The notes: a model not told the origin generated them from the letters alone. A stretch of 64,000 nt of DNA from Tyzzerella sp. An114 (GCF_002161055.1 NZ_NFLT01000003.1:186001-250000); one strand, 5' to 3'; positions 6,040 through 54,555 are shown, numbered from the stretch's first letter. Translations and numbers: made by a program.

Positions 6040-6212
6040 GCCTATTATTCACAATTAAAAAATATTATTCTACAAAAAATGACACTTTGAATTGTGCATA
6101 TTATATAATTTTATTCTATTTTAACATGAAAAGAAGGAGAATTATTACAAGTGTAGAATATATATATTATAAAATTAATTTTGACTTAACTATATAAGGG
6201 AGGTACATATAT

Positions 6213-8294
6213 ATGAGAAGTTATACTGCGAATGAAGTTAGAAATGTTGTTTTACTGGGGCACAGCGGCTGTGGAAAAACAACCATAGCCGAGGCAGCAC
6301 TTTTCCATTCAGGTGCTACTAAAAGACAGGGCCGTGTTGAAGACGGAAATACTGTAAGCGACTATGATGCAGAAGAAATCCGCCGTAAAGTATCCGTTAG
6401 CACTTCTGTGCTCCCTATTGAGTGGAAAGATACAAAAATAAATTTACTTGATACTCCTGGTTATTTTGATTTTGTAAGTGAAGTTAAACTTGCTATGAGC
6501 GTAGCAGATACCGCCCTTATTATAGTATCCGCAAAATCAGGTCTTGAAGTTGGTACAGAAAAGGCTTGGGAATATGCTGAAGAAATGAAAATCCCTAAAA
6601 TGTTCTTTATCAACCAGATGGATGATGACAGTGCGGACTTCCGTAAAACCCTTGAAGAACTTCGTGACAAATTTGGAAAAGTTGTTGCTCCTTTACAGGT
6701 TCCTTTCAGAGATGAAAATGGTATTTTAGGCTTTATAAATGTAATAAAGAGAGATGCTAGAATGCTTGACACAGCCACTGGAAAACTTATTAAATGTGAT
6801 ATTCCTGCTGATAAAGTTGATGAAGTTGAAGAACTTCGTGCTATGGTTGTTGAAGTTGCAGCTGAAAGTGATGATGAACTTTTGGAGAAATATTTCAATG
6901 ATGAAGAGCTTACTCTTGAAGAAATATATCTTGGACTTAAAAAAGGTATTAGACAGTTCTCAATAGCTCCTGTAATATTTGGTTCAGCTACAAAGGGTTA
7001 TGGAATTAAACTTCTCATGAGCACATTAGTTAAGTTTATACCACCATCAGAAGAATGTCGTCCATCATTTGAATGTATAGACCTTCGTCGTGGTGAAAAT
7101 GAAGGTATGATACGTTATAACTCAGAAAAAGAACATCTTGCTTGTTTCGTATTTAAGACAATTTCTGACCCATACGTTGGAAGACTTAATATTTTCAGAG
7201 TTGTTTCAGGTACAATTAATAATACAAAAACTGTTTATAATCCAGAGACTGACACTTATGAAAAGGTTGCTCATCTCTATGTTATGAGAGGAAAAGAACA
7301 GATTGAAGTTGATGAGCTTAATGCTGGTGATATTGGAGCATTAGCTAAACTTACAAATACATCAACACAGCATACACTTTGTTCAAAATATTTCCCTGTT
7401 CTTCTTCCAAAAATCGACCTTCCAAAACCTGTTCTCTCAATGGCTATTGCTCCTAAGGGAAAAGGTGATGAGGATAAGATTTCAAATGCTCTTGCAAAGA
7501 TAAAAGAAGAAGACCCTACATTAAAAGTAGAAGTAAACAAAGAAACAAAACAGACTATAATTACAGGCATAGGCGAAAATCAGCTTGATGTTGTTGTAAA
7601 TAAACTTAAAACAAAATATAAAATTGAAGTTGAGCTTTCAGACCCTATTATTCCTTACCGTGAAACTATTAAATCAAAAGTTAAAGTTCAGGGTAAATAT
7701 AAGAAACAGTCTGGCGGACATGGTCAGTTTGGTGATGTTTGGATTGAATTTGAACCTTCATTCGATATGACACAGTCCTATGTATTTGAAGAAAAAATAT
7801 TTGGTGGTGCTGTTCCTAAACAGTATTTCCCAGCTGTTGAAAAAGGTTTACAGGAATGTGTTCAGAGTGGTGTTCTTGCAGGATATCCAGTTGTAGGACT
7901 TAAAGCTACTCTTGTTGATGGTAGCTATCACCCAGTTGACTCATCTGAAATGGCATTCAAGATGGCAACATCTGTTGCTTTCAAAGAAGGTCTTCCACAG
8001 GCAAAACCTGTAATTCTTGAGCCTATTGTTCATGTTGAGGTTACAATACCTGATAAATACATGGGCGATATTATGGGAGACATTAATAAGAGACGTGGTC
8101 GTATACTCAGTATGAACCCTGAAAATGAGAAAAAACTTATTGTTGCAGAAGTTCCTCTTGCTGAAATGCAGAAATATGCTACTGACCTTCGTTCTATGAC
8201 ACAGGGTAGAGGTTCTTATGAATATTACTTCGAGCGTTATGAAGAAGCTCCTATGGATGTTCAGAAAAAAATAATTGAAAGCAGAAAGAAATAA
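6213..8294 (+). CDS. EF-G-like translation GTPase (paralogue)
   Basis: Translational GTPase of 693 residues with the full EF-G layout. The G domain has P-loop GHSGCGKT (residues 12-19) and DTPGYFDF for G3. Domain II, domain III, domain IV with the GGHGQFGD segment, and a C-terminal domain V (PDKYMGDIMGDINKRRGRI) follow. The G4 motif is NQMD rather than the usual NKxD. The gene stands alone with its own terminators rather than in a str operon (rpsL-rpsG-fusA-tuf), so it is probably the EF-G paralogue (EF-G2-like) and not the housekeeping factor. Whether it acts in translocation, recycling or stress is not known. A GGGAGG ribosome site precedes the ATG. Confidence 0.88.
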   Translation: MRSYTANEVRNVVLLGHSGCGKTTIAEAALFHSGATKRQGRVEDGNTVSDYDAEEIRRKVSVSTSVLPIEWKDTKINLLDTPGYFDFVSEVKLAMSVADTALIIVSAKSGLEVGTEKAWEYAEEMKIPKMFFINQMDDDSADFRKTLEELRDKFGKVVAPLQVPFRDENGILGFINVIKRDARMLDTATGKLIKCDIPADKVDEVEELRAMVVEVAAESDDELLEKYFNDEELTLEEIYLGLKKGIRQFSIAPVIFGSATKGYGIKLLMSTLVKFIPPSEECRPSFECIDLRRGENEGMIRYNSEKEHLACFVFKTISDPYVGRLNIFRVVSGTINNTKTVYNPETDTYEKVAHLYVMRGKEQIEVDELNAGDIGALAKLTNTSTQHTLCSKYFPVLLPKIDLPKPVLSMAIAPKGKGDEDKISNALAKIKEEDPTLKVEVNKETKQTIITGIGENQLDVVVNKLKTKYKIEVELSDPIIPYRETIKSKVKVQGKYKKQSGGHGQFGDVWIEFEPSFDMTQSYVFEEKIFGGAVPKQYFPAVEKGLQECVQSGVLAGYPVVGLKATLVDGSYHPVDSSEMAFKMATSVAFKEGLPQAKPVILEPIVHVEVTIPDKYMGDIMGDINKRRGRILSMNPENEKKLIVAEVPLAEMQKYATDLRSMTQGRGSYEYYFERYEEAPMDVQKKIIESRKK

Positions 8295-8304
8295 TATAAA
8301 TAAT

Positions 8305-8330
8305 AAAAGCGTACCTTATGGTACGCTTTT
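8305..8330 (+). terminator. Intrinsic terminator after the EF-G-like gene
   Basis: Stem GCGTACC/GGTACGC with a TTAT loop flanked by AAAA and TTTT, just after the stop codon. Confidence 0.85.
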
Positions 8331-8375
8331 ATGCTATTATATATTTATTGATAAATAAAAAAGGAGATGATTTTT

Positions 8376-9230
8376 TTGATAGATGTAGCAGTAATAGGAG
8401 CAGGACCAGGGGGACTTTCAGCAGCAGTTTCAGCTTTACAGAGAAACAAAAGTGTTACTATATTTGGAAGAAGTATAGACTCAGGACTTTTATTTAGTGC
8501 TAAAGAGGTTGACAACTATTTAGGTATGCCTAATATGACTGGTGAAGATATGTTAAATGCCTTTTTTAGCCATGCTATAAATAAAGGAGCAGAGTTTAAA
8601 GAGTGTAGAGTTTCTCAAATACTTTCAATGGGTGATTATTTTATGATTAATGCTGAAAATGAGTTTTTTGAAGCAAAAACAATAATACTTGCCCTCGGTG
8701 TTAATAAAAGTAGAACAATAAAGGGAGAAGAAGAACTTATAGGAAAAGGCGTAAGTTATTGTGCTACTTGTGACGGTATGCTTTACAGAAATAAAGATGT
8801 ATTTGTTGTTGGAGAGACAACAGAAGGTGAGGCAGAGGCAAACTATTTAGCTTCAATAGGTTGTAATGTTTCATATATTCCTTTGTATAAAGACTTAATC
8901 CATATTGATGATAAAGTAAATATTATTAGAGGTAAAGCTAAAAGTGTTTTGGGAAATGAATATGTTGAAGGAATAGTTGTAAATGGTGAAGAAAAGCAGT
9001 GTAATGCTGTGTTTTTTGCAAAAAAGACAATGCCTGTTGCAAGTCTTATGTTTGGTCTTGAAACAGAAAATAACTCAATAAAAGTTGACAGAAATATGTG
9101 TACTAATATAACAGGAGTTTATGCTTGTGGAGATTGTACAGGTGCACCTTTCCAAGTTTCAAAGGCTGTGGGAGAAGGTCTTGTTGCTGCTTTAAGTGCT
9201 GCAAAATATATTGAAGATAATCAAAAATAA
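8376..9230 (+). CDS. Thioredoxin-reductase-like flavoprotein lacking the NADPH motif
   Basis: Flavoprotein of about 284 residues resembling thioredoxin reductase. It has the FAD dinucleotide motif GAGPGGLSAA at the N-terminus, the redox pair CATC, and the C-terminal FAD motif ACGDCTGAPFQVSKAVGEG. The second dinucleotide site, normally GGGxSAxEEA followed by HRRxxxR, reads VVGETTEGEAEA followed by PLYKDLIH. Both the Gly cluster and the arginines that hold the NADPH phosphate are absent. This loss is known in ferredoxin-dependent flavin thioredoxin reductases (FFTR), described from Clostridium and Gloeobacter, so ferredoxin is a plausible donor (inference). The TTG at 8376 lies 9 bp after GGAG and is preferred; the in-frame ATG at 8367 abuts the ribosome site. 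Confidence 0.8.
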   Translation: MIDVAVIGAGPGGLSAAVSALQRNKSVTIFGRSIDSGLLFSAKEVDNYLGMPNMTGEDMLNAFFSHAINKGAEFKECRVSQILSMGDYFMINAENEFFEAKTIILALGVNKSRTIKGEEELIGKGVSYCATCDGMLYRNKDVFVVGETTEGEAEANYLASIGCNVSYIPLYKDLIHIDDKVNIIRGKAKSVLGNEYVEGIVVNGEEKQCNAVFFAKKTMPVASLMFGLETENNSIKVDRNMCTNITGVYACGDCTGAPFQVSKAVGEGLVAALSAAKYIEDNQK

Positions 9231-9252
9231 AGATTAACAAAAATTTTACAAT

Positions 9253-9294
9253 GGACAAAATCCTTATAAATTCGGGGTTTTGTCCTATTTTTTT
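9253..9294 (+). terminator. Intrinsic terminator
   Basis: Stem GGACAAAATCC against GGGGTTTTGTCC (one offset base in the lower part), followed by TATTTTTTT. It separates the flavoprotein gene from the two-component pair. Confidence 0.8.
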
Positions 9295-9306
9295 AAGTAT
9301 GTTAGA

Positions 9307-9334
9307 TTGACAAAAAAGTGTGAATTGTTATGAT
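9307..9334 (+). promoter_or_regulatory. Promoter of the two-component operon
   Basis: TTGACA at 9307-9312 and TATGAT at 9329-9334 with a 16-bp spacer, directly upstream of the response regulator gene. Confidence 0.65.
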
Positions 9335-9366
9335 ATTGTTAAATAATATTAAAAAGGAGAATAAAA

Positions 9367-10077
9367 ATGTCAAAAAAAAATATATTAACAGTTGATGACG
9401 AGATACATATTCTTGAATTATTAAGATATAATCTTGAAACTGCAGGATACAATGTTATTCAGGCTGAAAGTGGAGAGGAAGGACTTGAAATATTAGACAA
9501 AAATGATATTGATGCTGTTCTTTTAGACCTTATGCTTCCGGGGATTGATGGTCTTGAGGTTTTAAGAAGAATAAGAACAAATCCTGAAAAAAGAAAAACT
9601 CCTGTAATAATGCTTACAGCAAAGGGAGAAGAATTTGACAAAGTTTTAGGTCTTGAAATGGGTGCAGATGATTATATTGCAAAGCCTTTCAGTGTTAGAG
9701 AACTTCAAGCTAGACTTAAAGCTATATTAAGACGAGTTGATGACCAAAAAAATGAAAATGATAAAAAAAAGGTTAAAAAAATAAGTATTCATGGACTTGA
9801 AATTGGTTTAGAGACAAGAACTGTAACAATGAATGGTCAAGAAATAGAAATGTCTCATAAAGAATTTGAGCTTTTAAAACTTCTTGCAGAAAATCCGGGT
9901 AGAGTTTATTCAAGAGATATTCTCCTTGAAAAAATTTGGGGTTATGAGTATATAGGTGAGACAAGAACTGTTGATGTTCATATTCGACATATAAGAAAGA
10001 AAATTGAAGAAGATGACAGCAATCCTTTATTTATAAAAACCGTAAGAGGATACGGATATAAATTTAGAGAGGATTGA
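9367..10077 (+). CDS. PhoB/OmpR-family response regulator
   Basis: Response regulator of 236 residues. The N-terminal receiver domain has the acidic DDE cluster near residue 9, the phospho-acceptor Asp54 in LLDLMLPG, and the switch Lys in the IAKPF motif. A linker of charged residues (DDQKNENDKKK) leads to an OmpR/PhoB winged-helix DNA-binding domain in the C-terminal 100 residues, with the ETRTVDVHIRHIRKKIE recognition helix and a wing ending VRGYGYKF. It partners the histidine kinase gene that starts just after its stop. The pair resembles PhoB/PhoR or WalRK in architecture; no neighbouring phosphate genes confirm the signal. Confidence 0.9.
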   Translation: MSKKNILTVDDEIHILELLRYNLETAGYNVIQAESGEEGLEILDKNDIDAVLLDLMLPGIDGLEVLRRIRTNPEKRKTPVIMLTAKGEEFDKVLGLEMGADDYIAKPFSVRELQARLKAILRRVDDQKNENDKKKVKKISIHGLEIGLETRTVTMNGQEIEMSHKEFELLKLLAENPGRVYSRDILLEKIWGYEYIGETRTVDVHIRHIRKKIEEDDSNPLFIKTVRGYGYKFRED

Positions 10078-10082
10078 TAATT

Positions 10083-11846
10083 TTGAAGAAAAAACTTTTT
10101 CTTACTTATGTTCTTATAATACTTTTCATATCTAGTATAGCGGGATTTTTTTCAATACATCTTTATAGTGGTTTTTATAGAGAAGAATTTAAAAATCACC
10201 TTTTAAAAGAAAGTGACATACTTTCCGATATAATAAGGGAAGATGCAAATGATGTTACAGAAGAATATTTTGATAATTTTGTTGATATTTATAGTAAAAA
10301 ATTAGGCTGGAGAGTTACTGTTATAGACTCAAAGGGAAATGTTTTGGGAGACTCTGATGCTGAAAAATCACAGATGGAAAATCATCTTGATAGAAAAGAA
10401 GTTCAATCTGCTCTTAAAGGAAAACAGAGTGTTGAAATCCGTTACAGTAGCAGTATTGGTGCAGAATATATGTATTCTGCCTCTCCTGTTGAGATTAATG
10501 GAGAAATTATTATAATAAGACTTTCAGTTCCTCTTATATCCCTTCATGATATGCAAAGAAAAATTATGGGTTATATAATAGCTGGAATAATAATTGCTGC
10601 TGGAATGTCTTTTATATATGCTTATTTTCTATCAGATAAAATTTCAAAGCCTATTGATGAACTTACAAAGGCAGCTAGGGAAATTTCAGAAGGAAGATAT
10701 TCAAAAAGAATTGTAATAAAAAACAGTAATGACCAAATAGGAGAGCTTACAAATTCATTTAATTATATGAGTGAGCGTTTGACAGAGACAATAAACGCCC
10801 TTGAAAATGAAAATATAAAGTTGGAGTCTATATTAAATAGTCTTATGAATGGTGTTATTGCTGTTGATAATAATAATAATATACTTATGATAAATTCTGT
10901 ATTCAGAGAATTTTTTAAACTTCCTGAAGATGTTATAGGAAAAAATTTTTATGATGTAGTCAGAAATGAAAGTCTTTACTCCATAATGGAAGAAGTGCAA
11001 GAAAAAAATCATTATGTAGCCGATGAAGTTTGGTTTAAAGCTGTTATGGAAGAAACAAAAATATTAAGAATATATGCAGCACCTATTTCAGGAAAAAATT
11101 GTGGAACAGAAAATATAGGAAATCTTATAGTTTTCCAAGATGTAACACAGATAAGAAAACTTGAACAGATGAGAAGTGATTTTGTTTCAAATGTTACCCA
11201 TGAACTTAAAACTCCTTTAACTTCAATAATGGGATTTGCTGATACATTAAAAGAAGGTGCTATTGATGATAAAGACACAGCCCTTAAATTTATTGATATT
11301 ATAGAAATAGAGTCAAAGAGACTTTTTAGACTTATACAAGATATACTCTCACTTTCTGAAATAGAGACCAGAAAAGAAGATATAAATCAGGAATATTTTG
11401 ATATAAGTGAAATTATTGAAAGTGTTTGTCAGGTTCTTAAACCACAGGCAGATAATAAAAATATTGAACTTATAATAAGTGTTGATAAAAATCTTCCTAA
11501 ATTCAAATGTAATCGTGACAGGATTTCTCAAATGATGATTAATCTTATTGAGAATGGTATAAAGTATACTGAAAAGGGTAGTGTAAGAATTTCTTGTAAA
11601 AAAACAGGAAAATATATTGAAATAAATGTTAAAGATACAGGAATAGGAATACCAGAGGAGTCAAAAGAGAGAATATTTGAGAGATTTTATAGAGTCGATA
11701 AAGGTCGTTCAAGAAAAGCAGGAGGAACAGGACTAGGACTTTCAATAGTTAAACATATAGTGTTTTTGTATAACGGAAAACTTTGGGTTGAAAGTAAAAT
11801 GGGTAAAGGCTCAAAATTTGTTATACTTCTTCCTTTTGAACAGTAA
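10083..11846 (+). CDS. PhoR-like sensor histidine kinase
   Basis: Membrane sensor kinase of about 587 residues. A first helix (about 5-27) and a second near 160-185 bracket an extracellular domain. Then come a HAMP linker, a PAS domain (roughly 250-350), the dimerisation/phosphoacceptor helix with His373 in SNVTHELKTPLTS, and an HATPase domain with the N box (INLIENGIKY), G1 (DTGIGIP) and G2 (GGTGLGLSI). The TTG at 10083 is chosen because AGAGAGGA lies about 9 bp upstream; the alternative TTG at 10074 overlaps the regulator stop. It is translationally close to the response regulator, its cognate partner. The signal is unknown; the plan matches PhoR/PnpS-type kinases. Confidence 0.9.
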   Translation: MKKKLFLTYVLIILFISSIAGFFSIHLYSGFYREEFKNHLLKESDILSDIIREDANDVTEEYFDNFVDIYSKKLGWRVTVIDSKGNVLGDSDAEKSQMENHLDRKEVQSALKGKQSVEIRYSSSIGAEYMYSASPVEINGEIIIIRLSVPLISLHDMQRKIMGYIIAGIIIAAGMSFIYAYFLSDKISKPIDELTKAAREISEGRYSKRIVIKNSNDQIGELTNSFNYMSERLTETINALENENIKLESILNSLMNGVIAVDNNNNILMINSVFREFFKLPEDVIGKNFYDVVRNESLYSIMEEVQEKNHYVADEVWFKAVMEETKILRIYAAPISGKNCGTENIGNLIVFQDVTQIRKLEQMRSDFVSNVTHELKTPLTSIMGFADTLKEGAIDDKDTALKFIDIIEIESKRLFRLIQDILSLSEIETRKEDINQEYFDISEIIESVCQVLKPQADNKNIELIISVDKNLPKFKCNRDRISQMMINLIENGIKYTEKGSVRISCKKTGKYIEINVKDTGIGIPEESKERIFERFYRVDKGRSRKAGGTGLGLSIVKHIVFLYNGKLWVESKMGKGSKFVILLPFEQ

Positions 11847-41499: not shown

Positions 41500-41757
41500 A
41501 AAAAGGCTATGAAAAGGAGTAGTAAATATTATATCATTTTTAGAGAGCTGTCGGAAGGTGTAAGACAGTAATGATATTTTTTTGAACTCGCCTTGGAGCT
41601 TCGTTCTGAAAATCTTTAGTTTTTATATAAAGAATAAGTAGGAAACGACGTATAACCTGCGTTAAAGGATTTGAGTGTGGTTTTTATAATAAAACTAAAC
41701 TAGAGTGGTAACGCGGATATATCCTTCGTCTCTAAACTGAGGCGGAGGATTTTTTAT
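41500..41757 (+). ncRNA. Leucine T-box leader of leuS
   Basis: T-box riboswitch sensing uncharged tRNA-Leu. The stem I region begins around GGAGTAGTAAA. The specifier codon CTC is at 41587-41589 within GAACTCGCC. The T-box bulge sequence AGAGTGGTAACGCGG lies at 41703-41717 and pairs with the tRNA acceptor end. The terminator arms ATCCTTCGTCTC and GAGGCGGAGGAT (G-U tolerant) are followed by a T-run to about 41757. Uncharged tRNA-Leu would stabilise the antiterminator and switch leuS on. Confidence 0.93.
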
Positions 41758-49356: not shown

Positions 49357-49914
49357 TTATATTCTCTTAAAGTGAAAATTATTTACTATTTTTTCAACAG
49401 GTTTTGCAACTATATAGAATACAAATGTTTCAATAGGCAACATTATAATCTGTTTAAGTATTCTTCCAGAAAGAAGAATTAAAAACCCTTTTCCCAACAT
49501 AAGGCTTAACCAATATGTATTGAGAAGAGTATTTATAAATATTGTGACAATAAGTTTTGAAATTATTATTCTTTTAAGACTTATAGGCTGTTTGTAAAGT
49601 ATAAATCCATAAATCATTCCGCCTAAAACAGCACTTACAGTAAATCCAGGGAAATATGCCCCTGTTGGTTTAACTATAAGTTTTAAAATGTCTGAAACAC
49701 CAGCCATAATTCCGCCAGTTACAGGACCGAAAAACATGGCTGTAAGTTCATTGGCAACAAAAGAAAAACCTATTTTTAAAGAGTCGCCAATTTGAATAGT
49801 TGCAAAAAAACCTAAAAGAACAGCAACAGCTGTAAGCATACCTACGGCAGTAAGTTTTTTTGTGTCCTTAAGTTCTTCTGCTGATAATCTCATTTTTTCA
49901 ATTAAAACATTCAT
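49357..49914 (-). CDS. folT: Folate-family ECF transporter S component (FolT-like)
   Basis: Integral membrane substrate-binding subunit of 185 residues with about six helices. It resembles the clostridial folate family: TAVGMLTAVAVLLGFF, FSFVANELTAMFFGPVTGG, the PTGAYFPGFTVSAVLGGMIYGF core and an LKRIIISKLIV stretch. The ECF energising module is not encoded nearby. A tetrahydrofolate riboswitch precedes it, which strongly supports folate as substrate. AAAGGAGGT ribosome site just before the ATG. Confidence 0.88.
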   Translation of the reverse strand: MNVLIEKMRLSAEELKDTKKLTAVGMLTAVAVLLGFFATIQIGDSLKIGFSFVANELTAMFFGPVTGGIMAGVSDILKLIVKPTGAYFPGFTVSAVLGGMIYGFILYKQPISLKRIIISKLIVTIFINTLLNTYWLSLMLGKGFLILLSGRILKQIIMLPIETFVFYIVAKPVEKIVNNFHFKRI

Positions 49915-49975: not shown

Positions 49976-49985
49976 TCTATGCGTA

Positions 49986-50079
49986 GCAGCGGGATGCGGA
50001 TACTATAAGCAGTAAAAAACTTTGCCCTCTTCGACAACTCCCCGTTCGAAGGGTTTTAACAAATAATATCCTACTCTGC
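49986..50079 (-). ncRNA. Tetrahydrofolate (THF) riboswitch aptamer
   Basis: On the minus strand the RNA runs from GCAGAGTAGG to CCGCATCCCGCTGC. Conserved THF-I features are present: GAGTAGG, GTTAAAA, GGGGAGTTGTC and CCGCATCCCGCT. GCAG/CTGC forms P1 and GGATA/TATCC the next helix. It lies directly upstream of the folT-like gene, its usual partner. Confidence 0.9.
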
Positions 50080-50095
50080 GAATGTTTACTTTGTA

Positions 50096-50244: not shown

Positions 50245-50273
50245 TTGACAAAAGACATTTTGAATACTATCAT
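50245..50273 (+). promoter_or_regulatory. Promoter of the lysine riboswitch unit
   Basis: TTGACA at 50245-50250, 17-bp spacer, TATCAT at 50268-50273; transcription would start just before the aptamer. The 120 bp between this and the divergent folT promoter are AT-rich with no other recognisable element. Confidence 0.75.
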
Positions 50274-50285
50274 ATTTACGTATGA

Positions 50286-50433
50286 TGTTCGAATTTAGAG
50301 GCCGCGAAAATCAAGAGTAGTGTAAACGAAAGGGAAATTCGCCGAAAGCATAATGCTTGGGACTGTGTTGAATAAATGCAGTACTGTTTCTATGGTTTTT
50401 GTCCAAACTATAAGAAGGGAGCTGGTTCGAATA
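50286..50433 (+). ncRNA. Lysine (L-box) riboswitch aptamer
   Basis: Consensus pieces appear in the right order: TTAGAGGCCGCGAA, ATCAAGAGTAG, GAAAGG, TTCGCCGAA, the short P3 arm AAGCAT/ATGCTT, TTGGGACTGTG, TTGAATAAATGCAG, TACTGT and AGAAGGGAGCTG. P1 closes between TGTTCGAATT (50286-50295) and GGTTCGAATA (50424-50433). A terminator follows, so lysine should switch the downstream genes off at the level of transcription. Confidence 0.93.
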
Positions 50434-50460
50434 GGGCAGAAGAAATTGTTAAATGTTTAT

Positions 50461-50497
50461 AAGGCACCTTAAGTTCTTTTACTTAGGGTGCTTTTTT
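50461..50497 (+). terminator. Lysine-riboswitch terminator (attenuator)
   Basis: Arms AAGGCACCTTAAG and CTTAGGGTGCTT (one bulge) followed by TTTTTT. Located between the aptamer and the downstream gene, it is the switched terminator. Confidence 0.88.
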
Positions 50498-50526
50498 ATT
50501 ATGTTCAAAAAAAGGAGTTTTTAAAA

Positions 50527-51693
50527 ATGGTTTTCGGGTTATTAAAAGACATAAAAAAGGGAGAATACAGAACAATAGCTACACCAGTGGAAATCGCTTC
50601 AATAAAGGCTGATGGTCATACTGTACTTGTACAAAAAGGTGCAGGAGAGAGAGCCGGTTTTTCTGATGAAAGCTATGTTGAGGCTGGTGCTGAAATAGTA
50701 GATACAGCAAAAGAAATGTATGAAAGATGTGATTTCATAACAAAAGTTAAAGAACTTGAGCCTTATGAATTTGATATGCTTCGAGAAGGTCAAATTATAT
50801 TTACTTGTATACACCCAGCAGCTCACAGAGAGGAAGTTCAGGCACTTCTTGACAAAAAAGTTATTGCTTTTACAGCAGAGGACTCTCATAGATATGGTTC
50901 TTCAAACTGTGAAGCAGCAGGAAAACAGGGTGCTCTTTTCGGTCTTGAGTCTATGCTCACAATAAATGGTGGAAAAGGTAAATTTGTAAGTGGTCTCGGC
51001 GGAGCTCCTGGAATGAATGTACTTATACTTGGTGCTGGAGTTGTTGGACGCGCAGCTTTAGAAGTTCTTCATTCTCTCGGTGCCTGGGTAACTGTTATGG
51101 ATATAAATATTGGAACACTTAGAGAAGTTCAGAGAATGTATAATGAAAAAATAAATACAGCTTTCTGTACAAAAGAAAATATCAAAAAAATACTTCCACA
51201 GACAGACATGGTTTTAAACTGTGTAAAATGGCCTAAAGGAACAAATGAGTATCTTATAGATAGAGAAATGCTTAAACTTATGGAAAAAGGTTCTGTTATT
51301 GTTGACATAAGCAATGATGAAAACGGTGCAATAGAATCATTCCATGAGACAACTCATGAAGACCCAAGATATATTGAAGAAGGCATTGTTCATTACTGTG
51401 TAAGTAATATACCAGGAGCGATAGCAAATTCAACTTCAATAGCTTATGCAGGTTCTGTTCTTCCACACTTTAAGAAAATACTTAATAATGGCGTAGCAGA
51501 AGCTTGTGTAATGGACGGTTATCTTAGAAGAAGCCTTACAGCATATAAAGGATATCTTACTCATGAGGAGACAAGTGCTATACAGAATAGACCTTGGATA
51601 AGACCAGAGGATATTTTAAATATTGCTGATAGAAATCTTGACCCAGCTCCTCCAGCAACAGTTACAAAGTCAGATAACTTTATAAAATTATAA
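50527..51693 (+). CDS. Alanine-dehydrogenase-family oxidoreductase under lysine control
   Basis: NAD(P)-dependent enzyme of about 388 residues in the AlaDH/PNT family. Family active-site positions are kept: Arg in KKGEYRTIATP, Lys in ITKVKEL, His in TCIHPAAH and Asp in DISNDENGA. The Rossmann loop is ILGAGVVGRAALEVLHSLGA. Several segments differ from true alanine dehydrogenases: TCIHPAAHREEV instead of TYLHLA, and NDENG instead of IDQGG. The gene lies directly behind a lysine riboswitch and before an NhaC carrier. That context is unusual for alanine dehydrogenase; lysine or another diamino acid may be the substrate (inference; the family includes carboxyethyl-ornithine synthase and the fold includes saccharopine dehydrogenase). 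ATG 50527 follows AAAGGAG by 9 bp. Confidence 0.8.
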   Translation: MVFGLLKDIKKGEYRTIATPVEIASIKADGHTVLVQKGAGERAGFSDESYVEAGAEIVDTAKEMYERCDFITKVKELEPYEFDMLREGQIIFTCIHPAAHREEVQALLDKKVIAFTAEDSHRYGSSNCEAAGKQGALFGLESMLTINGGKGKFVSGLGGAPGMNVLILGAGVVGRAALEVLHSLGAWVTVMDINIGTLREVQRMYNEKINTAFCTKENIKKILPQTDMVLNCVKWPKGTNEYLIDREMLKLMEKGSVIVDISNDENGAIESFHETTHEDPRYIEEGIVHYCVSNIPGAIANSTSIAYAGSVLPHFKKILNNGVAEACVMDGYLRRSLTAYKGYLTHEETSAIQNRPWIRPEDILNIADRNLDPAPPATVTKSDNFIKL

Positions 51694-51727
51694 TAAATTA
51701 TAAAAATTTATTTAAAATTGTTTATTG

Positions 51728-51817
51728 GGCGGTTTCTTAAAATGTTTTGCAGATTATAGTATTATGATGATGAGTAAAAAATTTTTCTGTTTGCCATTTT
51801 TTAGAAACTGCCTTTTT
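51728..51817 (+). terminator. Long stem-loop between the AlaDH-family gene and nhaC-like gene
   Basis: Outer arms GGCGGTTTCT-T-AAAATG and CATTTT-TT-AGAAACTGCC enclose about 50 nt, with a further CAGA/TCTG pairing inside, and TTTTT follows. It may be an intrinsic terminator or another control point separating the two genes; the loop is unusually large for a simple terminator. Confidence 0.55.
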
Positions 51818-51852
51818 ATAAAATTTAAGTTTAATATGAAAGGTAGATGAAA

Positions 51853-53262
51853 ATGGAAGAAGTAGTAAACATGGGAATAATATCAATAGTTCCTTCTCTC
51901 CTCGCCATTGTTCTTTCTTTTGCAACAAGAAACACAATAGTTTCTCTTGTTGTTGCTTGTCTTGCAGGAACACTTTTGGCTGGTCAGGGACTTTTGGGAT
52001 TTCCTACACTTTTAAAAGAAAGTCTTGGAACAACAAGTTTTTCTTGGGTAATGCTCTTAAACACATTTATAGGAATTATAGTAGCTTATTTTCAAAAAAC
52101 AGGAGCTATTCAGGGATTTTCACAGTTTGTTCATGACAAAAACCTTAGTCGTAAAGGCGTACAGCTTGTATCATGGGTTTTAGGTATGTTTGTATATTTC
52201 AGTGACTCATTCGGCCCTCTTTTTGTAGGTTCAACAATGAGAAGTATATCTGATAAAGCTAAAATATCAAGAGAAAAACTTGCATATATAGCTGACTCAA
52301 CATCAGCCCCTGTAAGTGTCCTTGTATCGATTACAGGTTGGGCTGCATATCTTATGAGCCTTGCTGTTGGTGTAGGCTGTATAGCTACAACAGAGGACGC
52401 ATCAGCTCTTTTCTTGAAAGCAATACCATTTAATTTTTATCCAATATTTGCAGTTGTTCTTGTAGGTCTCATTGGTTCGGGTATAGTTAAAGATTTTGGA
52501 CCTATGAAAAAAGCTGAAGATAGAGCTATGAAAGAGGGAAAAGTTCTTCGTGATGGAGCTGTTCCTCTTATAGGAAAAGAACTTACAGAGATGAAAGCTT
52601 ATGAAGGTATAAAAACAAGAGTATTCTTAAACTTTATACTTCCTGTTCTTATGATTATAACAATAGCTATTGGAACATACATAAAATTTAACTCAGCAAA
52701 GACTATGGAAGCATTCCTTTTTGTAATAATATTTATGAATATAAGTATGCTTATACAAGGAATACCTTTTAAAGAAATTATGGAAACTACAACAAACGGT
52801 GTTAAAGGTGCTATACCTGCCGTAATGCTTCTTGCTCTTGCATATTCTGTAAATGATTTAAGTAAGGATATGGGAACAGCAAATTATATTGTTTCTCTCA
52901 GTGAGTCTTTCCTTTCTCCTTCACTTCTTCCAGCTATAATATTCATAATATCTGCAATAATGGCTTTTGCAACAGGTTCATCATGGGGTACATTTGCAAT
53001 ATGTATGCCTATCGCTTTACCTCTTGCCTTTAGCTTTACAAATGATACTCTTACACCTCTTGTAATAGCGTCCTTTGCAGCTGTTGCTGGTGGTGGAGTT
53101 TTCGGAGACCATTGTTCTCCACTTTCAGATACAACAGTTCTTTCATCAACAGGTGCAGCTTCTGACCATATTGACCATGTTAAAACACAGCTTCCATATT
53201 CTCTTGTATGTGGAGCTTTAGCAGTAGTTGCATATCTTGTGATAGGATTTGTATTCTGTTAA
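51853..53262 (+). CDS. NhaC-family Na+/H+ antiporter-like carrier
   Basis: Polytopic membrane protein of about 469 residues with eleven to twelve helices, in the NhaC / ion transporter superfamily. It has YFSDSFGPLFVGSTMRSISDKAKISREKLAYIADSTSAP, a conserved family segment (about residues 110-150), and the late GDHCSPLSDTTVLSS signature. Some NhaC members under lysine riboswitches are proposed lysine carriers (LysW-type). Being downstream of the lysine riboswitch and the AlaDH-family gene, a role in lysine uptake or exchange is plausible. ATG 51853 lies 9 bp after AAGG; the ATG at 51847 is too close. Confidence 0.85.
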   Translation: MEEVVNMGIISIVPSLLAIVLSFATRNTIVSLVVACLAGTLLAGQGLLGFPTLLKESLGTTSFSWVMLLNTFIGIIVAYFQKTGAIQGFSQFVHDKNLSRKGVQLVSWVLGMFVYFSDSFGPLFVGSTMRSISDKAKISREKLAYIADSTSAPVSVLVSITGWAAYLMSLAVGVGCIATTEDASALFLKAIPFNFYPIFAVVLVGLIGSGIVKDFGPMKKAEDRAMKEGKVLRDGAVPLIGKELTEMKAYEGIKTRVFLNFILPVLMIITIAIGTYIKFNSAKTMEAFLFVIIFMNISMLIQGIPFKEIMETTTNGVKGAIPAVMLLALAYSVNDLSKDMGTANYIVSLSESFLSPSLLPAIIFIISAIMAFATGSSWGTFAICMPIALPLAFSFTNDTLTPLVIASFAAVAGGGVFGDHCSPLSDTTVLSSTGAASDHIDHVKTQLPYSLVCGALAVVAYLVIGFVFC

Positions 53263-53367: not shown

Positions 53368-54555
53368 ATGAAATATGATTTTGAAAGTGTAATATCAAGA
53401 AAAAATACAGGTTCTGAAAAATGGAATAGTATGTATAAAAAATACAAAAACATACCTGATGATATTGTTCCTCTTTCTGTGGCTGATATGGAATTTAAAA
53501 ATCCTCCGGAAATAGGAGAGGCTTTAGGTGAATATTTTAAAAATTCTGTTATGGGATATACAGAGCCACAGGATAGTTATTATAATGCTGTTATTAGTTG
53601 GTTTAAAAGACGTCATAATTGGAATATAGAAAAAGAATGGATACTTGACTATCCGGGAGTTGTTCCTGCACTATATCATATTGTAAATTGTTTTACTGAA
53701 AAAGATGAGGGAGTTATAATATTTACTCCTGTATATTATCCTTTTTACAGTGCTATAAAATCTGGTGGAAGAAATATTGTGGAATGTCCTCTTGTTGAAA
53801 ACAATGGAGAATATAAAATAAATTTTGAGGATTTTGAAAATAAAGCAAAAGACAGTAAAAATACACTTTGTATAATATGCAATCCTCATAATCCTGTTGG
53901 TAGAGTATGGACAGTAGAAGAACTCAAAAAGATAGGGGACATATGTATAAAAAATAATATAAAAATTGTGTCTGATGAAATACATAATGATATTATTATG
54001 CCGGGATATAATCACACTGTTTTTGCATCAATATCAGAGGAATTTCAAAAAAATAGTATAATATGCACAGCACCAAGCAAAATATTTAATACAGCAGGTC
54101 TTATGACATCAAATATTATAATTTCAGATTATGAGACAAGAAAAAAACTTTATAAATATAGAATGAATAATGGTGTTTTTGGCTGTAATATGGCAGGTTA
54201 TAAAGCTTGTGAAGTTGCTTATAATAAATGTGAAGAATGGCTTTCACAGTTTATAAATGTTATAGACAGAAATAGAATTTTTGTTGAAAATTTTATAAGA
54301 GAGAATATACCTGAAATAAAAGTTTCAAGACTTGAGGGTACATATCTTATGTGGCTTGATTGTCGTCAATTAGGTATGGATTATATTAAACTTGAAAAAT
54401 TTATGATAGAGAAAGCCTTACTTTTTAATGATGAGGGATATATATTTGGAGAAGGCGGAAAAGGTTTTGAGAGAATAAATATAGCTTGCCCTTTAAGTGT
54501 ACTTTCACAAGCTATGGAAAGACTTAAAAAAGCTTTGGATAGTATTAAAAAATAA
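53368..54555 (+). CDS. PatB/MalY-type aminotransferase or cystathionine beta-lyase
   Basis: Fold-type I PLP enzyme of about 395 residues. Early ISRKNTGSEKWN and PLSVADMEFKNPPEI segments and the YTEPQDSYYNAVISWFKRRHNW stretch are typical of the PatB/MalY group. NPHNPVGRVW and SDEIHNDI provide the PLP contacts; the Schiff-base Lys is in APSKIFNTAGL. These enzymes cleave cystathionine, or cysteine and cysteine conjugates, and some transaminate. ATG 53368 follows AAAGGCGGTGA; the frame extends upstream into the preceding terminator and was not used. It has its own transcript, so a link to the lysine unit is not shown. Confidence 0.85.
   Translation: MKYDFESVISRKNTGSEKWNSMYKKYKNIPDDIVPLSVADMEFKNPPEIGEALGEYFKNSVMGYTEPQDSYYNAVISWFKRRHNWNIEKEWILDYPGVVPALYHIVNCFTEKDEGVIIFTPVYYPFYSAIKSGGRNIVECPLVENNGEYKINFEDFENKAKDSKNTLCIICNPHNPVGRVWTVEELKKIGDICIKNNIKIVSDEIHNDIIMPGYNHTVFASISEEFQKNSIICTAPSKIFNTAGLMTSNIIISDYETRKKLYKYRMNNGVFGCNMAGYKACEVAYNKCEEWLSQFINVIDRNRIFVENFIRENIPEIKVSRLEGTYLMWLDCRQLGMDYIKLEKFMIEKALLFNDEGYIFGEGGKGFERINIACPLSVLSQAMERLKKALDSIKK

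Follow-up and report, generated by a model that had tools for sequence, protein, structure and literature searches.

What does a lysine riboswitch control when the gene directly behind it resembles an alanine dehydrogenase (AlaDH)? The question is raised by a locus of Tyzzerella sp. An114, a clostridial draft genome of 2.75 Mb, within a stretch of 64,000 nucleotides (GCF_002161055.1 NZ_NFLT01000003.1:186001-250000) that we refer to as the window. From position 50245 onward, all of its elements lie on the plus strand: a promoter-like site, a lysine aptamer, and an intrinsic terminator precede a dehydrogenase gene of the AlaDH/PNT superfamily (50527-51693), which is followed by a gene for an NhaC-family carrier (51847-53262). 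In a sister species (G034, locus L036), the gene order is the same, the promoter, aptamer, and terminator have diverged but are intact, and the enzyme is 95% identical. The arrangement of riboswitch, enzyme, and carrier is confirmed as real and goes well beyond chance. Judged by its sequence, the enzyme falls outside the true alanine dehydrogenases and groups with proteins of the N5-(carboxyethyl)ornithine synthase (CEOS) type. We tentatively propose that it is an opine-type dehydrogenase that, together with a dedicated carrier, regains lysine from a lysine conjugate.

The enzyme and the alanine dehydrogenases

The dehydrogenase gene has an ATG start and encodes a protein of 388 amino acids (aa), in which Pfam recognizes the AlaDh_PNT_N and AlaDh_PNT_C domains. 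The nearest fold retrieved by Foldseek with its AlphaFold model (pLDDT 90) is that of M. tuberculosis AlaDH (TM score of 0.82). A scan of named genomes recovered 48 relatives at 56 to 95% identity, beyond which a gap separates them from AlaDHs at 39% or less; the window enzyme and these relatives constitute the 49-member family treated below, with residues numbered as in M. tuberculosis AlaDH unless noted. Against TIGR00518, the curated equivalog model for AlaDH, the window enzyme scores 261.5 bits, with the cut-off at 391.85, and all 36 members scanned fall under that cut-off at 256 to 300 bits. A true AlaDH scoring above it is also encoded in 7 of these 36 genomes, so the family is not simply the alanine dehydrogenase of its hosts.

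The catalytic residues R15, K75, H96, and D270 (D264 in the window protein) are invariant across the family alignment, in agreement with the first-pass annotation of the locus, which had read the active-site Arg, Lys, His, and Asp as kept. That annotation had also described a departure from alanine dehydrogenase around the active site, and rightly so: the alanine-pocket residues Y/F94, L130, and M133, present in all 63 AlaDHs compared, are lost. In every one of the 49 members, Y/F94 is replaced by C, L97 by P, Y/F117 by A, T119 by D, M133 by N (N127 in the window protein), and M301 by I, and residues 125 to 130, including L130, are deleted. D198, a marker of NAD use, is found in 45 of the 49. 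The family shares with the AlaDHs of M. tuberculosis (2vhx), T. thermophilus (2eez), and Phormidium (1pjb) the fold, the catalytic residues, and 30 to 36% identity but differs from them in its score below the cut-off, its place outside their clade, and its replaced or deleted pocket residues. A link to saccharopine dehydrogenase, also raised in the first-pass annotation, did not hold up, as the similarity of the window enzyme to yeast Lys1 (2qrj) is distant and confined to N-terminal residues 8 to 79 (E value of 3e-4, versus 1e-92 for AlaDH), with no full-length match.

That AlaDHs provide both the closest solved structures and the highest identity favors a reading in which the enzyme is a dehydrogenase of another simple amino acid, which would be imported by NhaC, GltS, or SNF carriers and oxidatively deaminated to a 2-oxo acid and ammonia, with the lysine control being an accident of promoter capture. 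We regard this as a possible but somewhat doubtful account, given the phylogenetic and gene-neighborhood evidence that follows.

Kinship with carboxyethyl-ornithine synthases

The CEOS of Lactococcus condenses pyruvate with ornithine or lysine. Our CEOS references are genes annotated as N(5)-(carboxyethyl)ornithine synthase, not the assayed Lactococcus protein; CEOS-type plasmid genes, including those of Lactococcus lactis and L. cremoris, were reached by tblastn from divergent relatives (L168 and L169), while blastn with a CEOS-type locus gave no matches. In trees computed from reduced sequence sets with PntA as the outgroup, the family is monophyletic (support of 100/100), lies outside all AlaDHs, and forms a clade with CEOS whose support of 93.4/98 becomes 98.8/100 when more taxa are included. 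In the larger-taxon tree, it is the sister group of the seven CEOS-type sequences and is not nested among them (98.8/100). The grouping is not an expected artifact, because long-branch attraction would pull CEOS toward PntA and not toward the family. Hence, the kinship to CEOS that had been guessed from the window alone is supported as a sister-group relationship, and the suggested phylogenetic comparison with AlaDHs, CEOSs, and saccharopine dehydrogenases places the enzyme apart from the true AlaDHs.

Particular residues follow the same division. N133 is present in all 49 family members and all seven CEOS-type sequences and in none of the AlaDHs of two alignments (0/63 and 0/28); N237, which replaces G237, is present in 16/16 family members, six of the seven CEOS-type sequences, and 0/28 AlaDHs. 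These asparagines (the second in most cases), the AlaDh_PNT fold, and R15, K75, H96, and D270 are common to the family and its sister clade, the Lactococcus-type CEOSs. The latter differ in having W94 and in mostly lacking the acidic, NAD-type D198, as in an NADP-type pocket, whereas the family has C94, D198, a shortened loop at residues 122 to 127, and a C-terminal tail. Both the position in the tree with CEOS rather than AlaDH and the shared N133 and N237 speak against a dehydrogenase of another simple amino acid.

A carrier subfamily tied to the enzyme

An NhaC carrier had been predicted behind the enzyme gene, and the 471-aa product of 51847-53262 indeed matches PF03553 at 167 bits (cut-off of 23); its score of 59 bits against TIGR00931, the equivalog model for the NhaC Na+/H+ antiporter, lies below the cut-off of 370. 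The carrier shares PF03553 and 31 to 33% identity with the LysW-type NhaC carriers behind canonical lysine riboswitches but belongs to a separate subfamily tied to AlaDH/CEOS-type genes. In 26 of the 45 family relatives that could be assessed, across phyla, the gene immediately downstream encodes, in the same orientation, a member of this subfamily (65 to 94% identical). Other neighbors of the family are a GltS-type carrier (7), an upstream SNF-type carrier (5; together with NhaC in 5 loci), an ornithine-cyclodeaminase-family gene (3), and PrdR-like sigma-54 regulators. This variation of carrier type by species is in favor of the reading of the enzyme as a dehydrogenase of another simple amino acid.

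The reverse survey covered about 1,170 genomes sampled from the order, class, and phylum, with carriers accepted at identities of at least 50%, and in it an AlaDH/CEOS-superfamily gene adjoins all five carriers of the window subfamily. Three of the five stand beside genes of the family (G000, which is the source genome, G034, and G490). The fourth (G098) is beside a gene of the CEOS type, and the surrounding exopolysaccharide cluster also encodes a TupA-like ATP-grasp. The fifth (G573) is beside an AlaDH-like gene with an N237-C-x-x-W motif; the far side of this carrier, within a GrdB-type reductase cluster, has an octopine/nopaline dehydrogenase (PF02317) as well as a pair for Grd component B, with a SECIS element. 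From these neighborhoods, the carrier appears to associate with enzymes for the synthesis or cleavage of N-carboxyalkyl amino acids, and this is probably the strongest clue to function. The pairing of one carrier subfamily with a CEOS-type gene, and its location also beside an opine dehydrogenase homolog, speak against a window enzyme that acts on another simple amino acid.

The resemblance to riboswitch-controlled NhaC carriers lends itself to a different reading, in which the riboswitch serves the carrier as a LysW-like lysine importer and the intervening dehydrogenase has no role concerning lysine. Lysine riboswitches before NhaC-family genes are already known, as recorded in two surveys (PMC5584792 and PMC11477304). 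We nevertheless consider this reading quite unlikely: the enzyme gene stands directly behind the switch, a terminator-like hairpin precedes nhaC in both species, the enzyme-carrier pair is distributed far more widely than the riboswitch, and in the sampled genomes this carrier subfamily occurs only beside such enzymes. The hairpin is long, occupies 51727-51813 on the plus strand in the gap between the two genes (fold z score of -2.3), and has a different hairpin as its counterpart at the equivalent place in the sister species. With this hairpin in place, the two genes are likely co-transcribed, though perhaps with attenuation. An origin of the hairpin from a repeat element was ruled out, as it is present in a single copy in the genome.

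Two kinds of cluster involve these gene types. In that of the fifth carrier (L187, 7331-15139, minus strand), genes for a PrdR-like regulator, Grd component B alpha, a GrdB-type SECIS selenoprotein, an octopine/nopaline dehydrogenase, an NhaC carrier, and an AlaDH-like protein are found together, an ensemble that resembles a Stickland-type pathway for some unusual amino acid with an N-substitution. Elsewhere, CEOS-type genes are embedded in polysaccharide clusters (L183, 6104-8483, and the E. coli plasmid locus L174, 2968-4083) with TupA-like ATP-grasp, glycosyltransferase, and flippase genes, suggesting a role in the synthesis of a decoration consisting of a carboxyalkyl amino acid. The latter clusters, of which L183 has the TupA-like ATP-grasp, are the basis for supposing that the window enzyme might itself work in the synthetic direction, producing a carboxyethyl amino acid for export or the cell surface, with the lysine riboswitch limiting the use of lysine-family precursors. 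This we hold to be very improbable; polysaccharide genes were not seen near the window gene, nor do they recur beside its family relatives.

The lysine riboswitch

The promoter-like site (TTGACA-17-TATCAT, 50245-50273, near consensus at 11/12 positions) is conserved in the sister species and is followed by a short-form lysine aptamer at 50288-50432, recognized by RF00168, folding, and alignment. The full length of the RF00168 model is matched, with a score of 72.5 bits (E value of 5e-17; Rfam gathering cut-off of 30 bits). Minimum free energy folding recovers the junction of five helices (P1 to P5), and the core sequences GAAAGGG, GCCGAA, UGGG, and ACUG are retained. The conserved core positions described for the T. 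maritima aptamer (PMC3764141) are all matched except A162, which is G. Of P2 and P3, only very small hairpins are left, so that, unlike in canonical aptamers, no L2-L3 kissing loop is possible. Of the "complete lysine aptamer" of the first-pass annotation, then, the aptamer and its five helices stand, but the word "complete" was generous in view of the truncated P2 and P3. The short form is real, since short aptamers lacking the kissing arms also lie ahead of dapA in a Tissierellia genome (L123). J5-1 reads GGAG instead of AGNG, a sequence that appears only once among 40 other aptamers, in a Bacillus riboswitch (L156) ahead of an APC-type permease gene. The source genome has one other lysine riboswitch, ahead of asd.

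The unusual J5-1, along with a P5 of UUU/AAG replacing UCA/UGG in the short aptamers, prompted consideration of a riboswitch class with an altered ligand. This was not upheld for the window aptamer, whose core is kept apart from A162. Because GGAG recurs in L156 and short forms precede dapA, we take the window RNA to be a probable lysine aptamer.

The predicted terminator ahead of the enzyme gene is present at 50461-50494 on the plus strand as the expression platform, with a 14-bp stem and a U run, and its hairpin is preserved in the sister species with compensatory changes. In B. subtilis and E. coli, lysine riboswitches work as OFF switches (PMC11477304). Given this precedent, and since the terminator directly follows the aptamer, the window switch is most likely an OFF switch as well. 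It shares with other RF00168 riboswitches the five-helix core, the conserved junction sequences, and the terminator and differs from them in its lost kissing-loop arms, its J5-1, and its AlaDH/CEOS-type target gene. The available portions of the surveys PMC5584792 and PMC11477304 make no mention of an AlaDH/CEOS-type enzyme as a lysine riboswitch target.

Distribution of the enzyme, the pair, and the trio

Among 392 genomes of the order, orthologs of the enzyme are found in only two others (95% and 73% identity), with the next identity at 40% or less. The hosts of the family include Lachnospiraceae, Oscillospiraceae, Tissierellia, Anoxynatronum, Filifactor, Sporomusaceae, Bacillus, Pyramidobacter, and Victivallales. 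In a rabbit gut metagenome-assembled genome (L043), the same gene pair is preceded by a terminator and a lysine aptamer that is degenerate, scoring 43 bits and lacking P2, and no riboswitch was recognized at the remaining enzyme-NhaC pairs in the 16 loci scanned and in genome scans. The survey of the riboswitch-enzyme-NhaC trio suggested by the first-pass annotation thus had a divided outcome: the pair is widespread (26/45), but the full trio is restricted to this genus and the degenerate metagenomic case. As a consequence of this restriction, lysine control is best viewed as a local addition and not as a general property of the enzyme. The lack of conservation of the riboswitch among relatives favors a dehydrogenase of another simple amino acid, as do the nearby sigma-54 regulators, which suggest induction by substrate.

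Five Lachnospiraceae-type genomes with the enzyme (L159, L160, L161, L162, and L163) also carry a short lysine riboswitch variant of 144 to 159 nucleotides with J5-1 AGCA and J1-2 GGGG. It precedes a hydantoinase A/B pair and then an NhaC/ArcD-type carrier (e.g., L162 at about 6138-11630), and the closest match of the A subunit is caprolactamase alpha (523 bits, with a cut-off of 1000). Possibly, the operon specifies a lysine-lactam hydrolase, or the hyu-linked AGCA aptamer has an altered ligand.

Proposed function

The reading that we favor, plausible without being probable, is that an opine-type dehydrogenase and its dedicated carrier regain lysine from a lysine conjugate under the riboswitch. 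We infer the substrate, the cargo of the carrier, the oxidative direction, and the OFF direction. The enzyme would be an NAD-dependent dehydrogenase acting on an opine-type secondary amine, most likely by an oxidation that releases the free amino acid and pyruvate or another 2-oxo acid from an N-(carboxyalkyl) amino acid, of which N6-(1-carboxyethyl)lysine is an example, and the dedicated NhaC-family carrier, predicted to be of the sodium type, would import the conjugate (or the amino acid). When lysine is plentiful, the aptamer would close and the terminator would form; when it is scarce, the enzyme and carrier would be made and lysine would be recovered. Such a shut-off by lysine is to be expected of a salvage route that yields lysine. 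A lysine-consuming synthase, on the other hand, should not be shut off by abundant lysine, and the NAD-type D198 better fits oxidation, both of which argue against the synthetic direction considered above.

Several observations weigh against lysine salvage. The identity between the family and CEOS is just 22 to 30%, with long branches, and the family loop at residues 118 to 127 (EDxHRYGSPN) is unlike that of both AlaDH and CEOS. The J5-1 of the window is rare among lysine aptamers, and folding with P1 blocked yielded no convincing antiterminator or P1-competing pairing. The riboswitch is missing from nearly all other enzyme-carrier pairs, many of which lie near PrdR-like sigma-54 regulators or GltS carriers, suggesting a substrate-induced catabolism unrelated to lysine; we infer that the sigma-54 regulators beside the family genes elsewhere respond to substrate.

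Other features of the window

A PatB-family C-S lyase gene (53368-54555, plus strand) lies downstream of the NhaC gene and is probably unrelated, because tblastn found no match to it in the loci of the 48 relatives. On the minus strand, a THF riboswitch (49985-50080, 53.3 bits) precedes a gene (49357-49914) for a small membrane protein, which, we presume, resembles the S component of a folate ECF transporter. The window additionally contains a T-box leader (41500-41736, plus strand, 137.9 bits).

Implications

Literature searches retrieved no paper on the enzymes of this family under any searchable name and none usable on carboxyethyl-lysine enzymes, and the family appears to be undescribed. 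The gene is present in dozens of anaerobe genomes, and by the evidence given here, the name of its nearest curated model, alanine dehydrogenase, toward which automatic annotation would tend, is wrong. The association of an NhaC subfamily with AlaDH, CEOS, and opine dehydrogenase genes provides a handle on the cargo of NhaC-family amino acid carriers, a question that also concerns the riboswitch-controlled NhaC genes. It is conceivable, though on balance unlikely, that the family and its NhaC carrier enable anaerobes of the gut to obtain amino acids from N-carboxyalkyl conjugates, one of which would be carboxyethyl-lysine, a glycation product in food, and that this genus offers the first case of lysine-conjugate salvage under a lysine riboswitch. 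Should the enzyme indeed split N-carboxyalkyl lysine, it would be, together with its carrier, a testable candidate for the breakdown of advanced glycation products or of opines from bacteria in the gut, and a salvage pathway would join the known targets of lysine riboswitches.

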